34,667 bases of DNA, taken from assembly GCA_905181675.1 (NCBI GenBank), contig CAJIYZ010000071.1:1-34667 (forward strand). The letters are read 5' to 3'. This DNA is from Bacteroidetes bacterium MED-G20. GTDB lineage: Bacteria > Bacteroidota > Bacteroidia > Flavobacteriales_D > Parvicellaceae. How positions within the stretch are numbered: the stretch's first letter is position 1; each line of letters opens with the position of its first letter. A model generated the notes under the pieces. The model made no database searches, was not told where the DNA came from, and was given only the letters and a program-made list of their open reading frames with translations. This document shows, piece after piece, positions 8,511 to 30,200 of this stretch. Both the position numbers and the translations under genes were made by a program.

Positions 8511-10408
8511 AGTTTTATAACCCTAAGTTTTTCTACTTTATCTCCAAACTTTACTTTTAGTAGATAAATCCCTTTTTTGAAATTTATTAAAGAGATTTTA
8601 TCTCCAATTTGATAAGATATATATTTTCCATTTACATCGTAAATATATGTTTCAAAAGGGCCTTTGGAAGATTTAGATTTTAATTGTAGATAATCAATAG
8701 TTGCCGTAGGGTATGCATATATCAATTGTTCTTTCAATGTATTGTAACCACTTAGGCTCTCTCCATTATATGCACCAATATTTGGAAGTAAACTATTGGA
8801 AACAAGATTTCCAAAATAATCCTTTCCACCATTATTATTTAAATAATTTGTAGAATCATTACTTCCTGAAATTAGTTTTCCATTACCAATGGCTATGCTG
8901 CTATTTTGGATTTTATAAAATAAAGGATTATTTACACCTTGATTAAAAGAATTAACTAGCTGTGGGTTTTCAAATATGGCATTATTCATTAAATCGCTAT
9001 CTAAATCTAATCGGGAAGAATCGTAAAAAATATTGTGACTTATATTTAAAATATTTGAGGTGTTTTGTAAAAGAGTTGGAATTTTATTTCCATAGCTACC
9101 AACGTAAATTAGATTATTATAAAGATGGACATCTCCTATATTTGGCCAAAAATATATTTCAGGATTCAGACTATCATTTACAAATATGGTATTGTTATAA
9201 ATAAAACTTCCTACGTTAGGGCATCTTGGACCCGATCCGCAAAAATTAGATATCCAAAATATTTTTCCTTTTTTATCCCAAGAAGAATTGTTGGGGTCTA
9301 ACCTGTACCCGTCGTTAACACTAATATTGTATCTATAACCACAGTTTATATTATCTCCTAAAATCTCAGCAAAACCTCCTTCGTTATTATAGCTATAGTT
9401 GTACTGAAATACAACATTTTCATTGCCATAATCTATATGAGCACCGTAAGAATCTTGTGGCCCATGTGCATTCATGAAATAATTGTGCTGTACAATTACA
9501 TCTTTACAATCAAAAGTCCATAAGCCACTTCCTCTTTTCCACATTCTCGGATCAATACTTGAGCCAGAATGATTAAATGAAGAATTTTGAACTAGTATAT
9601 TTTTGGACTTATTGGGGACAAAACCAGACCCACCAGTATCTTCAAAATTACACTCCAAAATATTAATGTTTGAATTTTTTACAGAGTCAATCCCGTTTAA
9701 TCCTAAAGATTTTACCCATATTCCATAATGACCTGTTTTAGAAATATCACAATTATAAATTTTCAAATCAGAAATTCTATTATATAAAAAACTTAAGGTA
9801 TCAGACTGTGATTCAATTTTAATTCCATAACCTTTGTGAATATTTTGACTCAATACTGGACTAGGGTAGATATCGTGTATTTTTAAATTATTAAAAGAAA
9901 AACCAGTTAAAGACTTAGATGTTGCAACAATTTTAATTCCAAAACGAACATTTTTTCCAGATCCCCAAGTGTTTGATGCCCCAGAAAAACCAGCAAGCAA
10001 CTTTATATTTCCTAATGAGTCAAGATGGGAGTTTTCATTGAAAATATCTAAGTTATTTATACTAATAAACTCATTATTAAATAACAAAATACAAGATTGA
10101 TAGCCGTCACCATTAATACTAGCTTTATCAAGTCCACCATAAGTATCTACAACAATTGGATGTGATGAATCGCCAGAACCTTTTAACCAGAACATTCCTA
10201 GAAAAGTATCTCCTGACTTAAATAAAATAGAGTCCCCAGGAAAGAAATTAAAAGTATTGAGTCTAGAAATAGATTTTATAGGCGTTTGCGAACTAAGTCC
10301 AGAATTTGTATCGTTTCCCAGAGAATTGCTTACAAAATAAGTAGATGCATTTAGATTTAGACATCTAGAAAGTAAGAAAACAATATATATATATTTTAGA
10401 AATCGCAT
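8507..10408 (-). CDS. secreted right-handed beta-helix protein with T9SS sorting domain
   Basis: 633 residues. The N-terminus (MRFLKYIYIVFLLSRCLNLN) is a signal peptide. The body (about 30-530) has many short strands with recurrent Asn and aromatic residues (e.g. INNLDIFN, IHDIYPSP, NILVQNSSFNHSG, VVFQYNYSYNNEGG), the pattern of parallel beta-helix (PbH1) repeats seen in polysaccharide lyases and epimerases. The last 75 or so residues (YIYDVNGKYIS, FKKGIYLLKV, KLRVIKL) form a T9SS type A sorting domain, so the protein should cross the outer membrane and be surface-attached or released. A polysaccharide target is likely for the fold, but no catalytic residues can be assigned. It is transcribed alone, convergent with the SLC13-type transporter. 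Confidence 0.87.
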   Translation of the reverse strand: MRFLKYIYIVFLLSRCLNLNASTYFVSNSLGNDTNSGLSSQTPIKSISRLNTFNFFPGDSILFKSGDTFLGMFWLKGSGDSSHPIVVDTYGGLDKASINGDGYQSCILLFNNEFISINNLDIFNENSHLDSLGNIKLLAGFSGASNTWGSGKNVRFGIKIVATSKSLTGFSFNNLKIHDIYPSPVLSQNIHKGYGIKIESQSDTLSFLYNRISDLKIYNCDISKTGHYGIWVKSLGLNGIDSVKNSNINILECNFEDTGGSGFVPNKSKNILVQNSSFNHSGSSIDPRMWKRGSGLWTFDCKDVIVQHNYFMNAHGPQDSYGAHIDYGNENVVFQYNYSYNNEGGFAEILGDNINCGYRYNISVNDGYRLDPNNSSWDKKGKIFWISNFCGSGPRCPNVGSFIYNNTIFVNDSLNPEIYFWPNIGDVHLYNNLIYVGSYGNKIPTLLQNTSNILNISHNIFYDSSRLDLDSDLMNNAIFENPQLVNSFNQGVNNPLFYKIQNSSIAIGNGKLISGSNDSTNYLNNNGGKDYFGNLVSNSLLPNIGAYNGESLSGYNTLKEQLIYAYPTATIDYLQLKSKSSKGPFETYIYDVNGKYISYQIGDKISLINFKKGIYLLKVKFGDKVEKLRVIKL

Positions 10409-24925: not shown

Positions 24926-26785
24926 ATGAAAAAAATACAATTAACTATACTTTACTTTTGCTTCTGTGGCATTTTCAATGCTCAAGTAAAATCAGATAAA
25001 AACTTTAACACTTGTGATTTTAAACCACTTGTTAATCAAAATTTAAACTTTTCTAAATCTAGTTTTGACACTATTGCATACAATACTTTCAATAATGTTG
25101 CAGATTGGACAATTAGTGCTGCGAATTTACAAGGACAATGGGAAGTTGTTACAACAACTCCTGCCGATGTTGTAACCTATATGGGGACAATGGCCTCCAC
25201 TTCAGTCTCAGATGGTTTTGCTGTTTTTAACGGGATTCAGTATTTGCTCACTGGAAGTGTTGATTTTCAAGATGCTGCTATTGAACTAAATGACACACTA
25301 GATTTAAGCAACTATCCTAGTGTCACTTTAGAGTTTGAACAAATGTATAAAGCTTTTAATTACGATAAAACTTTCGTGGAGCTATCTACTGATTATGGAA
25401 CAACCTGGACTGCCATAGAACTTAACGATCAAGTGACAACGAACGACCCTGCAATTCAAGAACTTGTTGGAATCAACATATCTTCCTATGTTGGTGGACA
25501 ACAAGGGGTTAAAATTAGGTTTAGATGGACCAGTGACAGCGACGATGATTCCTTCGGGTCTGGGTATGGATGGTTAATTGATGATTTAAAAATAACAGTT
25601 CCACCGGAAAATGACATTCAAAATATTTCCTCTTGGATATTTGGTGAGAATAGTGGAGGAGCTGAGTATGGGAGAACTCCTATTTCACAAGTTGAACAAA
25701 ATTATTATATAGGATCATCAGTTTATAATTACGGTTCTATGGATCAATTAAATGTTGTTTCAAATGGAGATTTTAATGGGCCGACTACTATTTCAAGTTC
25801 TGCTTCAAGTACTATTATAGAAAGTGATTCTACAAAATCTATTGAAAGCCTAAATCCTGTCAGTTTGTCGGTAGGAAATTACACAGGATCTGTAACAGTA
25901 ACTTCTATGGGAGACACTTTAGGATCGGGGAATTTTGACGATAATACCTTTTTAAGAAATTTTGAAATCACCAATGATATATATTCCTTAGATGGGCTTG
26001 GAAACCACCCTGCAGGTTATGAAGCAATTGGATCGTTAGGGTCTAATTCTTGGTCAGATGCTTCGGATGGATTAGTTTGTGGAACATATTACCCAATTAA
26101 ACAAGAAGAAATTTTAAATTCTGTAAGAGCTTACATAACGAGTTCTACTATGGCCCAAAGTGAGGTGATTTTATATATATTGGATTCTTTAAGCTTCACA
26201 AGTGGTCTATTTAGCAACTCTATTTTCACATCTGAACTTTACACTGTTACTGCTCAGGATGTAAATAATGGATATATAGAAATTCCAGTTGCAAACAATA
26301 TTGGTTGGGATCCAATCAATAATATTTCAACTTGGGAAAATGTTACATTAGGAATTGGAAGTTACTATGCTGCAATTGAACTATACAGCGGGGGCAATAC
26401 TTACGATATTAGAATTCTTGATGACAATACTGTAGGACAGCCTGCTTGGTCAAGCGCAATATGGTATCCTGGAGATCAAGCTTACTCAAATGGAAATGCA
26501 TTTGCAATAAGAATGAATTTGGGGTCTAATGTGAATTTAATGGAGAATACAATAAATAAATTGGAAGTTTTTCCAAACCCATCCAATGATTTTGTGAATA
26601 TTAAACTAGAAAATAACTTGCAAAGTGAATTAACGCTAATGGATGTTTCTGGAAAAGTTGTTCTTGAAAAAACATTTACAAACACCTCAAATATTATTCT
26701 TTCTTCTCTTAAATGTGGAATTTACATGCTTTCTGTTAAAAATAATTCTCAAATTATAACCAAGAGAGTTAACGTTGTTAAATAG
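24926..26785 (+). CDS. T9SS cargo protein with jelly-roll domain (paralog A)
   Basis: 619 residues from the ATG at 24926 (MKKIQLTILYFCFCGIFNAQ, a signal peptide). The frame is open further upstream into gcvP, but only the 24926 start gives a clean signal sequence. About 40-225 is an adhesin/MAM-like jelly roll (EFEQMYKAFNYDKTFVELST, GWLIDDLKI). About 229-540 is a second module nearly shared with the gene at 28239 (e.g. HPAGYEAIGSLGSNSW, DGLVCGTYY, PAWSSAIWYP). About 545-619 is a T9SS type A sorting domain (VFPNPSNDFVNIKL, LMDVSGKVV, CGIYMLSVK). Such proteins are exported by Sec, then T9SS, and displayed or released. Adhesion or matrix binding is plausible but not shown. The SH3b/MORN-like gene overlaps its 3' end. 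Confidence 0.88.
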   Translation: MKKIQLTILYFCFCGIFNAQVKSDKNFNTCDFKPLVNQNLNFSKSSFDTIAYNTFNNVADWTISAANLQGQWEVVTTTPADVVTYMGTMASTSVSDGFAVFNGIQYLLTGSVDFQDAAIELNDTLDLSNYPSVTLEFEQMYKAFNYDKTFVELSTDYGTTWTAIELNDQVTTNDPAIQELVGINISSYVGGQQGVKIRFRWTSDSDDDSFGSGYGWLIDDLKITVPPENDIQNISSWIFGENSGGAEYGRTPISQVEQNYYIGSSVYNYGSMDQLNVVSNGDFNGPTTISSSASSTIIESDSTKSIESLNPVSLSVGNYTGSVTVTSMGDTLGSGNFDDNTFLRNFEITNDIYSLDGLGNHPAGYEAIGSLGSNSWSDASDGLVCGTYYPIKQEEILNSVRAYITSSTMAQSEVILYILDSLSFTSGLFSNSIFTSELYTVTAQDVNNGYIEIPVANNIGWDPINNISTWENVTLGIGSYYAAIELYSGGNTYDIRILDDNTVGQPAWSSAIWYPGDQAYSNGNAFAIRMNLGSNVNLMENTINKLEVFPNPSNDFVNIKLENNLQSELTLMDVSGKVVLEKTFTNTSNIILSSLKCGIYMLSVKNNSQIITKRVNVVK

Positions 26786-27896
26786 AATCACAATTAAAAA
26801 GCTACTTCTTGTTTTATTGATAGTTCCAACTGTTTCTTTTGGTCAAAAAGTAATTGATCAGATTTATTTTGTAGCCTCATCAGGCGGATTAAATGTTAGA
26901 GATAAGCCTGGAAGTGAAGGAAATAAAATAGCAACGCTGTTGCTGGATGATTTTGTAATCTTAAAACAAAAAACAGATAAATCTTTAATCATAAATGATT
27001 TCAACAAGGCGACCGGAAAAACTAAAGAAATTTCGGGGCACTGGGCTAAAATTGAAACCTTAAACCCGCCTAAACTCAAAGGCAATAAAGTTTTATGGGA
27101 AGATAACTATGAAAATATAGAAGGCTATGTTTTTAATGGGTTTTTGAAAAAAACAAACATAACAGATACAATTAACTCTGTGGAACTTTTAAACAAGAAC
27201 AATTTATTTTATCACCAAAAAAAACTATTTACAGGTAAAACAATAACAGTTAAATCGACCTTAGTTGACGAAAATAAAATTGAAGTTCCCAATTATGTTC
27301 TTATTAAAACTTATTTAAATGGATTAAAGTATAGAGAAACTGAGTATAATCAATATTGGACTAATCCTTGTTTAGTATTGGATAATATTTATTACAAAAA
27401 TGGAAATATAATGCAAGGCGGAATTCATAAAGATTGTTTTATATGGGATTATAACTATTATTATGAAAACGGTCAAATAAAGTCTCAAAATACAGATTTA
27501 TGTGCATATTGTGGACGACACGAACATACAGAATGGTACGATAATGGTCAGCTTAAATTTGGTTTTGGCAAGACTAATGGAAGCATTGAAATTATGAATG
27601 CTAATGATCAAGATGCTCATGCAACAAAATATTTTGATATTAATCCTGATAATTTAAAAAAATATAACATCAAACGATTTGTGATAAATTTCTTAAGTGA
27701 AAAAAGGTGGTTTTACAGAAATGGTGAAAAAGAAAAAACCGTTAAATTCATTGACTATACTAGTTTGGAGAATTATGGAGATATGGGTAGTCAATTTTTT
27801 ATTGAAATAAATGGCAAGGCTATTAATTTAGATAAACCTCACATATTTGAATCTGAATGTTGGGATGAAAAAGGAATCAAAATTAAATGTCCTTGA
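26775..27896 (+). CDS. secreted SH3b and MORN-like repeat protein
   Basis: 373 residues, with a TTG start that overlaps the stop of paralog A by 11 bases. This start gives a complete signal peptide (NRITIKKLLLVLLIVPTVSFGQ); no ATG lies nearby. Residues about 28-115 form a bacterial SH3 domain (GGLNVRDKPGSEGNKIATLL, with a later WAKIE and GYVFNGFL). Residues about 205-260 hold MORN/YwqK-like repeats (YYKNGNIMQGG, YYYENGQIKSQ, WYDNGQLKFG), and a last repeat-like ECWDEKGIKIKCP ends the protein. It lacks a T9SS sorting domain, so it probably stays in the periplasm or outer membrane. Function is unknown; SH3b domains often bind peptidoglycan. The gene is flanked by two copies of a T9SS sorting-domain sequence, one of them broken. 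Confidence 0.8.
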   Translation: MLNRITIKKLLLVLLIVPTVSFGQKVIDQIYFVASSGGLNVRDKPGSEGNKIATLLLDDFVILKQKTDKSLIINDFNKATGKTKEISGHWAKIETLNPPKLKGNKVLWEDNYENIEGYVFNGFLKKTNITDTINSVELLNKNNLFYHQKKLFTGKTITVKSTLVDENKIEVPNYVLIKTYLNGLKYRETEYNQYWTNPCLVLDNIYYKNGNIMQGGIHKDCFIWDYNYYYENGQIKSQNTDLCAYCGRHEHTEWYDNGQLKFGFGKTNGSIEIMNANDQDAHATKYFDINPDNLKKYNIKRFVINFLSEKRWFYRNGEKEKTVKFIDYTSLENYGDMGSQFFIEINGKAINLDKPHIFESECWDEKGIKIKCP

Positions 27897-27931
27897 ATCA
27901 TCATCGGCATATCCTCCTTTTTAATTTCAGA

Positions 27932-28130
27932 GATTTTATGAATATTAAAGTTGTAAAAAACTTGCCAAGTGAATTATCAATCATAAATGTTTCTGGAAAA
28001 ATTGTTCTTGAAAAAAATATTTACAAATATATCAAATCTTAATCTTTCTTCTCTTAAAAGTTGGACTTACATACTATTTGTTAAAAACCATTCTCAAATT
28101 ATCCCAATTAGAGATAACCTATGTAAATAG
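27932..28130 (+). pseudogene. decayed T9SS sorting-domain remnant
   Basis: About 200 bases that align with the 3' end of paralog A (26587-26785), roughly 80% identical by hand count with a single 1-base insertion near 28015. Conceptual reading in the first frame gives FMNIKVVKNLPSELSI and INVSGKIVLEKN. After the frameshift, FTNISNLNLSSLK, FVKNHSQIIPIRD and a stop at 28128-28130 follow, matching residue by residue the tail of paralog A. The similarity starts abruptly at about 27932 and stops just after the TAG (AAATAGAAT shared). No start codon, signal peptide or body of a gene precedes it. It fills most of the 342-base gap between the SH3b/MORN-like gene and paralog B; the rest shows nothing I can name. 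Confidence 0.85.
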
Positions 28131-28238
28131 AATTCTTGCTCAAAGAGTTTTGTTTAAACTAAAAGCGAAATACTTAAATATTTGAACTAAATAAATTATT
28201 TTTTCTTATTATTGTTATATAATCTTAATGACAATAAA

Positions 28239-30200
28239 ATGAAAAAAATTTACTTATTACTCTTTTGTATAACTACTAGTTTTTTAGCAAGTGCACAAAG
28301 CTCTTCGAGTCAAATGTCTAAAAAACATGAATTTATAGAAGAAAAAATTAAACCTGACTTTTCAAGCCAACCTAAAGGTGTAGTGCTTTGGGAAAATCAA
28401 TTTGACAACGCAAGTGACTGGGTTACTGATAACAGTTGTTCTTATGCATCTTACAATATAGTTGGCGGGTATGATTACACTAACCAAACTCCAATCACCT
28501 CAACTTCAGTTTGTGCTGGTACTGGTACTGGTGCCACAGATCCTGGAACAGGAACTACAGCTCAATGGAGATTCGAAACAGATGCTAACTTAATACCTGT
28601 AGCTGCTCTTGCGCCGTTTGGATCTGCTTCGGCATCTAATGGCTTTCTATTTATAAATTCTGACGCATGTGGTGGTGGTGATGGCGATGGTACTCCGATA
28701 TACGTTACTGCAACTATTGCAACTCCTATAGATTTAACTGGCGAAAACAGTGTTGTTTTGTCTTTTTCACATAACTACAGATGGTGGCAAGATACGAGAG
28801 GGGTAAGAGTTTCTGGAGATAACGGAGCTACTTGGGTTCAATATGAAATCACTAACAATTCTGGATATCCAAATGATCAAAACTCAGGAAATCCTGAAAT
28901 TACAAGTATCGATGTTTCTTCTGATGTTGGTGGACAATCACAAGTTTTGGTACAGTTTTATTACGAAGATAATGACTTTTGGGCATGGTATTGGGCTGTA
29001 GATGATGTAAAAATATCTAGAAAAGATTTAAACAATATTCAAGCAAATTCTTCTTGGATTTATGGTGAAACACATTTTGGTGCTGAATATGGTAGAGTTC
29101 CAATTACTGAAATAGATCAAAATTGGGTAGTTGGCGCACAAGTAACTAACGATGGTGTTAATGATCAAACAAATGTGAGTTTAGCTGCTGATTTTGGCTC
29201 ATTCAACACAACATCTTCCCTTGGAATTGTTGAAGCTGATTCAACATCAGTTATTGAATCTTTAGAACCCTTAACTTTAACAGCTGGAGTTTACCAAGGA
29301 ACATTTACTGTAAGTTCAGATTCTGATCAGGTTGGTGGAGCTAATTTTTCAGATAATACCTACGAAAGAAATTTTGAGATAACCAACGATGTATACTCTT
29401 TAGACGGCATTGGATTACACCCAGCTGGATACGAAGCACTTGGGTCACTTGGAAGTAATTCATGGGCAGATGCTGCAGATGGTCTGGTATGTGGTACTTA
29501 CTATAATTTAAAACAAACTCAAGTTGTAAACTCTGTAAGAACTTATATAACTTCTTCATCTGTTGCTCAAGCAGAAGTCATTTTATATATTATTGATTCG
29601 CTAAGTTTCTCTACTGGTGCTTTTGGAAATGCAACATATACATCTGATTTATATCCTTTAACTGCTACAGATGTTGCCAATGGCTACTTTGATATGTCTA
29701 TAGCAACACTTTCTGGTTGGGATCCATCAACAAATAGCAATACTTGGGAAAACTTAACTTTAAGTGCAGGTGGCTATTATTTAGCTGTTGAATTATTTAG
29801 TGGTGGTAATACTTTTGATGTAAGAATTGTAGATGATGCTACAGTAACTCAACCTGCATGGTCAAGTGCAATTTGGTATCCTGCACCAACAAGTACTTTT
29901 TATTCAAATGGTAATGCTTTTGCTATTAGAATGAATATGGGAGCAAATGTTGGAATAAATGAAAAAGTCAAAAACAAGGTTTCTATTTATCCAAATCCAA
30001 CTTCCGATGTTTTAAATATATCTACAAACTCTAACAATATCAGTGAGTTAATGATAAAAGATATTACGGGGAAAATAATTTTAACTCAACAGTTTAATTC
30101 TAAGGTTACTATTAACACTGAAAATTATGCCAAAGGGGTTTATTTAATAGATGTCAAAAATAACCTTGGTACAGTTTCTCAAAAGATATCTGTGCAGTAA
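28239..30200 (+). CDS. T9SS cargo protein with jelly-roll domain (paralog B)
   Basis: 653 residues from the ATG at 28239 (MKKIYLLLFCITTSFLASAQ, a signal peptide). An open frame extends 27 bases upstream but adds nothing useful. About 45-260 is a jelly-roll-like domain (SFSHNYRWWQDTRGVRVSG, WYWAVDDVKI), longer and more divergent than in paralog A, with a Gly/Thr-rich insert near 98-105 and a GGGDGDG loop that could bind calcium. About 264-575 closely matches paralog A (HPAGYEALGSLGSNSW, DGLVCGTYY, PAWSSAIWYP). The end is a T9SS type A sorting domain (SIYPNPTSDVLNIS, ITGKIIL, KGVYLIDVK). A clear hairpin terminator follows at 30222. The family function is unknown; surface binding is likely. Confidence 0.88.
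   Translation: MKKIYLLLFCITTSFLASAQSSSSQMSKKHEFIEEKIKPDFSSQPKGVVLWENQFDNASDWVTDNSCSYASYNIVGGYDYTNQTPITSTSVCAGTGTGATDPGTGTTAQWRFETDANLIPVAALAPFGSASASNGFLFINSDACGGGDGDGTPIYVTATIATPIDLTGENSVVLSFSHNYRWWQDTRGVRVSGDNGATWVQYEITNNSGYPNDQNSGNPEITSIDVSSDVGGQSQVLVQFYYEDNDFWAWYWAVDDVKISRKDLNNIQANSSWIYGETHFGAEYGRVPITEIDQNWVVGAQVTNDGVNDQTNVSLAADFGSFNTTSSLGIVEADSTSVIESLEPLTLTAGVYQGTFTVSSDSDQVGGANFSDNTYERNFEITNDVYSLDGIGLHPAGYEALGSLGSNSWADAADGLVCGTYYNLKQTQVVNSVRTYITSSSVAQAEVILYIIDSLSFSTGAFGNATYTSDLYPLTATDVANGYFDMSIATLSGWDPSTNSNTWENLTLSAGGYYLAVELFSGGNTFDVRIVDDATVTQPAWSSAIWYPAPTSTFYSNGNAFAIRMNMGANVGINEKVKNKVSIYPNPTSDVLNISTNSNNISELMIKDITGKIILTQQFNSKVTINTENYAKGVYLIDVKNNLGTVSQKISVQ

Follow-up and report, generated by a model that had tools for sequence, protein, structure and literature searches.

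The window, the whole stretch of 34,667 nucleotides that was analysed, carries two tandem paralogs, A and B, which encode proteins with T9SS sorting domains (in the case of paralog A, Por_Secre_tail PF18962 at 5e-13 and TIGR04183 at 2e-14). Between them lies an SH3b/MORN-like open reading frame of 373 codons, which is preceded by the 3' end, or tail, of paralog A and followed by a short repeat, R, and by a second copy of the same tail (Table 1). The SH3_3 and MORN_2 matches of this ORF are weak, both being under the Pfam cut-offs, and a Pfam search of it found no sorting domain.

Table 1. Features of the A-B locus, in positions of the window
Feature	Position	Strand	Description
Paralog A	24926..26785	+	intact secreted protein with a T9SS type A sorting domain; conserved in the genus
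Tail copy 1 (W1)	26588..26788	+	in-frame 3' end of A, with the stop codon and 3 further bases; joined to the A body
SH3b/MORN-like ORF, putative cargo gene	26775..27896	+	373 aa, signal peptide; TTG start overlaps the A stop
Net inserted unit, ~1,345 bp	26789..28133	+	gained over the empty site of congeners; made up of the gene, R and one copy of the tail
R repeat, 35 bp	27896..27930	+	cassette-end sequence; in kind the 3' end (reverse complement) of a tyrosine-integrase gene
Tail copy 2 (W2)	27932..28133	+	decaying duplicate of the A tail; joined to the native A-B intergenic sequence
Native A-B intergenic sequence	28134..28238	+	continuous with copy 2; aligned with G008, G003, G010, G006 and G009
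Paralog B	28239..30200	+	T9SS sorting-domain protein; neighbour, outside the insertion

An insertion with a duplicated gene end

An initial annotation of this DNA had described positions 27932-28130 as a repeat of 26587-26785 at about 80% identity with one single-base insertion, the second copy being broken, and had placed the gene at 26775-27896 between these direct repeats with paralog B next. Each of these points was borne out. In a global alignment the two segments shared 160 identities over 198 aligned bases (80.8%) with one internal single-base insertion, and the coordinates proved accurate. Since the match continues for 3 bases beyond the stop codon of paralog A, to 26788 and 28133, the repeat unit measures ~202 bp and the spacing is 1,344-1,345. 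When the 1.73-Mb genome was searched with the A tail by BLAST, it was found in two places only (E = 1.2e-117 for the self-match and 4.1e-48 for copy 2). The tail of paralog B, which aligns with that of A at 64% identity with 32 gap columns, was not recovered by this DNA search of the whole genome, implying that the match between the two copies lies far above the background among T9SS domains. Copy 1 runs on from the body of paralog A and keeps the gene intact; copy 2 has stops in all three forward frames, none of which is open, and runs on into the native downstream sequence.

Because the two copies are sisters in a tree of tails (W1 and W2, UFBoot 99), the tree shows that the tail was duplicated within the lineage of the window. 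To judge from its sequence, copy 2 has since been decaying as non-coding DNA, with a branch length of 0.23 vs 0.04 for copy 1, and the changes found in W2 only are spread evenly over the codon positions (5/5/3). Between species, the tail and the body of paralog A have diverged in proportion (84.0% for the body and 78.8% for the tail between the window and the congener G008; 89.8% and 85.9% between G008 and a further congener, G003), so that there is no sign of import of the tail from afar, and its acquisition from a distant lineage was rejected. An assembly artefact is unlikely at this locus, given that the two tails differ by 19% and that both flanks match relatives.

The genome of the window (G000) was compared with ten other genomes of the same genus, and we counted those eight in which A and B were readable on one contig at normal spacing; the nearest genomes are draft MAGs. 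In all eight (G002, G003, G004, G006, G007, G008, G009 and G010) B comes next after A, the SH3b/MORN-like gene and a second tail both being absent, and the match to B begins ~430 nt past the end of A in these congeners vs 1,772 nt past it in the window. When aligned, the congeners have a single tail, and the intergenic sequence behind it is the one that lies behind copy 2 in the window. Given eight congeners with A and B only and with one tail, the alignments show that the window holds a lineage-specific insertion of ~1,345 bp. The insert comprises one ORF and has no similarity to integrases. In the congener G001, paralog A lies in two open frames (L043, G001:C2, 228314-230171), which match 1-392 and 393-617 of the query and possibly represent a frameshift or a gene split.

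The inserted gene has few relatives. None was found among 395 genomes of the phylum at 1e-8, and a search of 399 genomes of the order yielded one, at 4e-14, in G003, which can be aligned only over the N-terminal ~116 aa (39% over 116 aa); three more matches in the order sample had E values of about 5e-4 over 40-60 residues. This N-terminal relative excepted, searches of the 39 genomes of the family recovered the gene in no other. The ATG of the G003 relative opens MKKLLLLLFVPIVSLGQ, and the aligned codon of the window is ATT, at about 26796; the window ORF now opens within the last codons of A, and its position makes a joint transcript with A likely. A phage or plasmid origin was rejected after searches of 50,697 phage records, 72,556 plasmid records and IMG/VR gave no match at the sensitivity used, as was membership of a defence system, there being no PADLOC match; PHROGs gave no match for the gene either. 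No tRNA target was found in the window. A match to the Rfam histone 3' UTR stem-loop (Histone3) at 27684-27745 on the minus strand reached 23.4 bits, under the gathering score of 34; we took it as chance and rejected an RNA element in the window.

R-bounded cassettes in marine Flavobacteriia

The G003 contig that carries the SH3b relative has a repeat of ~35 bp, R, at every gene boundary. The relative itself sits between R copies and beside an integrase, and one of the R copies is the 3' end of the tyrosine-integrase gene (...ELNEDDMPMV). Between the integrase start and the SH3b cassette (L046, G003:C68, 3310-3405) there is a tRNA-Met-like sequence whose D-arm holds an insertion of ~36 nt and for which ARAGORN makes no call; it is possibly an old attachment target.

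A scan of one genome per species, using a pattern made from the G003 copies, matched at least 120 stretches, with counts of R being lower bounds. Among the matches listed, nearly all stretches come from MAGs or single-cell genomes of marine Flavobacteriia, and at least 281 copies of R lie in at least 123 stretches, in arrays that reach 9 copies in 8 kb. Within the order of the window R was matched in 16 of 399 genomes, vs one for a reversed control pattern, so the system is patchy in its distribution. The pattern also matched once in each of four Alteromonas genomes (L108, L115, L118 and L149); these matches are probably one conserved chromosomal sequence, found by chance.

Among the matches listed, the left edge of R is sharp and lies at the integrase stop codon, and conservation fades after ~33 bases, extending further in those copies that have a longer integrase fragment; seeding with G003 inflates conservation at the seed positions and leaves the edges of R and the flanking arrays unaffected. 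Full-length integrases (~345 aa) end in R, which encodes their last codons, after the catalytic tyrosine, and they conserve the residues around the catalytic arginines, lysine, histidine and tyrosine. To the right of R, the repeats in arrays are integrase fragments or leaders. In L092 (1480-8000) several R copies extend into integrase fragments, up to near full length, indicating that integrases can be arranged in tandem, separated by cargo. A leader (AATTTGTATATTG...TATTAACCATAAATCAATTTAAA-ATG) is common to the sequences right of R in L112, L185, L126 and L046, and its resemblance to a Bacteroidetes promoter suggests that cassettes may bring their own promoter.

The units that run from one R to the next number at least 142, with a median of 862 bp, among the matches listed, where the main ORF points in the direction of R in 90 of 115 and the opposite way in 25. 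Among their cargo are serine beta-lactamase-family and metallo-beta-lactamase-fold proteins, a sulfatase, a GDSL lipase, an AraC regulator and a T9SS kelch protein, besides many unknowns. A near-identical signal peptide (MKKLLLLLFIPLVSFGQ) stands ahead of unrelated bodies in the cassette ORFs of L046, L082 and L216 and at 26796-26850 of the window. Five cassettes are common to two genomes each, at 85-91% DNA identity (L094/L127, L141/L153, L122/L151, L185/L187 and L137/L171). Their homology begins at or after one R and ends at, or within about 15 bp of, the end of an R, and they sit in different neighbourhoods in unrelated genomes. Cassettes therefore appear to be individually mobile between genomes. 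We found no description of this R/integrase system in the open-access papers searched, and this widespread, integron-like cassette system is apparently undescribed.

The SH3b/MORN-like gene of the window carries R at its 3' end, just after the stop codon, as do other R-bounded cassettes. This site scored 24.3 bits with a weight matrix built from 236 sites, from which it was itself excluded; the second-best score in the window was -1.4, and 4 Mb of simulated sequence of like composition gave 10.0 at most. By these comparisons, the gained gene is shown to end in the repeat that bounds single-gene cassettes in marine flavobacterial arrays. Homology to the A tail picks up again 0-3 bases after the end of R. 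On the left side, W1 and its stop codon are followed by AAT and then by the cassette gene without a leader, the codon that matches the relative's ATG in the alignment lying only ~7 bases past W1. An integrase is present in G003, G016 and G013; none was found in G000 (84% complete), and the A tails of relatives have no R-like site. The initial annotation had suggested, as speculation, a cassette system operating at the tail repeats. A cassette system does exist, with its probable recombination site at the R of the gene's 3' end and not in the sorting-domain sequence.

A second solitary cassette was found in G001, where an insertion of ~600 bp, consisting of a leader, a 111-aa ORF, R and an integrase 3' fragment, lies between GNAT and DEAD-box helicase genes (L083, G001:C4:270000-289000, about 8901-9505). 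The same site is empty in G006 (two contigs) and in G003, with 10-36 bp between the genes. Together with the window, this implies that solitary R-ended cassettes arose at least twice in the genus. The G001 cassette retains its leader and its flanks are not duplicated, so that the tail duplication seen in the window is no regular by-product of insertion, and we rejected a general rule of flank duplication.

Origin of the SH3b/MORN-like insertion

It is probable, on the evidence of these comparisons, that the SH3b/MORN-like gene reached the A-B locus as a single mobile gene cassette, and did so in the lineage of the window only. An integrase supplied in trans would excise cassettes as circles ending in R, and these would be inserted mostly at the R sites of arrays and occasionally off-target. 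In the window, an integrase acting in trans would have joined R to the start of the sorting domain of A; with no integrase found in G000 and no R-like site in the A tails of relatives, such a joining would be off-target, as has been suggested for integron cassettes that lie outside arrays (PMC8618304). Unlike the G001 case, the left junction differs from that of a plain cassette insertion, in that the leader is gone and the gene stands behind a full A tail, and it would need an additional step. Paralog A may have been cut at the sorting domain and then repaired by an intact allele, with a microhomology join before the SH3b gene; the inserted molecule may have carried an A tail and integrated by homology, supplying the new 3' end; or a template switch may have taken place. 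The cassette gene would have lost both its leader and the start codon of its own; probably it is now read as a gene downstream of A, from the TTG in A's last codons.

Several other histories bear on this reading, of which one departs from it only in the origin of copy 1. If the inserted circle already carried the A tail (tail-SH3b-R), homologous or site-specific recombination at the tail of A would have supplied A with a new 3' end and displaced the old one downstream, as happens with e14 and phage 21 in icd, and a single integration step would yield the observed order of A body, tail, SH3b-R, tail and native downstream sequence. This requires, however, an earlier chromosome with SH3b-R already behind A, and since copies 1 and 2 are sisters the tail must have come from the same lineage; we hold it to be possible, if tentative. 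We think it unlikely that a linear SH3b-R fragment came in through template switching at replication or through a staggered break, events that would have copied ~200 bp of flanking sequence to either side without an integrase acting at the locus. The two copies do share both ends, and possible microhomologies exist at the left (AGAAT) and right (AGA/GAT) junctions, but the right junction coincides with the end of R, where cassettes end elsewhere, and chance breakage predicts no such thing. For the arrays as a whole, it seems rather doubtful that they are mere scars of successive island integrations, formed by tandem accretion with subsequent loss of integrases, and hold no individually mobile cassettes. 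Many R copies extend into longer integrase 3' fragments, and some arrays have several integrase remnants, as such scars would; yet single cassettes are common to unrelated genomes with different neighbours, their homology ending at R on both sides, and solitary single-gene insertions occur.

The readings offered by the initial annotation fared differently. One of them, that a 200-base unit was duplicated together with its neighbour, comes close to the evidence from relatives, which is for a duplication with the arrival of the neighbouring gene. The loss of a third tandem paralog between A and B, except for its tail, would account for a T9SS tail as a remnant beside two tandem paralogs; it is very improbable, since the eight readable relatives of the genus have A and B only and no full third gene, the two tails are sisters that were duplicated inside the window's lineage and do not come from separate paralog lineages, and copy 2 precedes the A-B intergenic sequence that directly follows A in relatives. 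We give still less credence, and indeed scarcely any, to the proposal that interchangeable sorting domains act as recombination sites that swap the bodies of surface proteins. A gene flanked by two tails in direct orientation would fit it, but no other tail in the genome matches at the DNA level, which leaves T9SS tails unsupported as recombination sites; moreover, the flanked gene has no sorting domain, and the repeats arose together with the insertion.

Comparison with known cassette systems

On balance, we lean towards the view that marine Flavobacteriia possess a second system of mobile single-gene cassettes, one that is independent of integrons and has a non-IntI tyrosine integrase whose recombination site is its own 3' coding end. 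This site would be copied to the end of each cassette, and the system would build arrays and also place solitary cassettes at other chromosomal sites, the window being one case. The closest cases all come from MAG or single-cell assemblies. If true, the combination of an independent recombinase with another type of site would represent convergent evolution of gene capture, and would provide a vehicle for small accessory genes in ocean bacteria, including beta-lactamase-fold hydrolases, sulfatases, lipases, acetyltransferases and surface proteins. With R and the integrase defined, the system is directly testable. The window illustrates how a cassette can come to stand by itself behind a host gene, in an operon-like position, with the duplicated, decaying tail of that gene as its only other trace.

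Marine flavobacteria exchange accessory genes heavily, although integrons are very rare in Bacteroidetes according to IntegronFinder 2.0 (PMC9024848). As in integrons, a tyrosine recombinase lies near tandem single-ORF cassettes, and a short site stands at the 3' end of each gene, mostly in the same orientation. The sharing of cassettes between genomes, arrays without an integrase and solitary insertions are likewise known from integrons and CALINs (PMC8618304, PMC9024848). The integrase, however, is different: seven full-length R-system integrases scored 19-28 bits against TIGR02249 (cut-off 265), and the best model for them was XerA_Arch, at 47-54 bits (cut-off 220). The site differs as well, being the 3' coding end of the integrase gene and not an attI or attC, and it does not lie in front of the integrase gene. 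When nine R sites were folded, two did better than shuffled sequences (z = -2.97 and -2.18) and seven did not, with no shared structure; with no consistent fold in the nine sites, an attC hairpin in R was rejected. The R system works like an integron, but it is not one, because the integrase falls far below the IntI model and R lacks an attC hairpin.

Duplicated 3' ends of the target gene are present at the A locus, where copy 1 may have come with the insert as in icd/e14-type elements. The elements e14 and phage 21 in icd are integrative elements that replace the 3' end of their target gene. They too leave the target intact with one 3' end and displace a decaying copy of that end beyond the insert. 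The insert in the window differs in being one gene without an integrase, and the site of its cassette derives from the integrase gene, not from the target gene. Tycheposons are tRNA-targeted integrative elements of marine bacteria. They are named in PMC12416821, and they and other tRNA-targeted elements share with the R system tyrosine recombinases that move small cargo in ocean bacteria, and a tRNA-like stretch lies beside the G003 integrase, but R units are single genes bounded by repeats of the integrase 3' end in tandem arrays.
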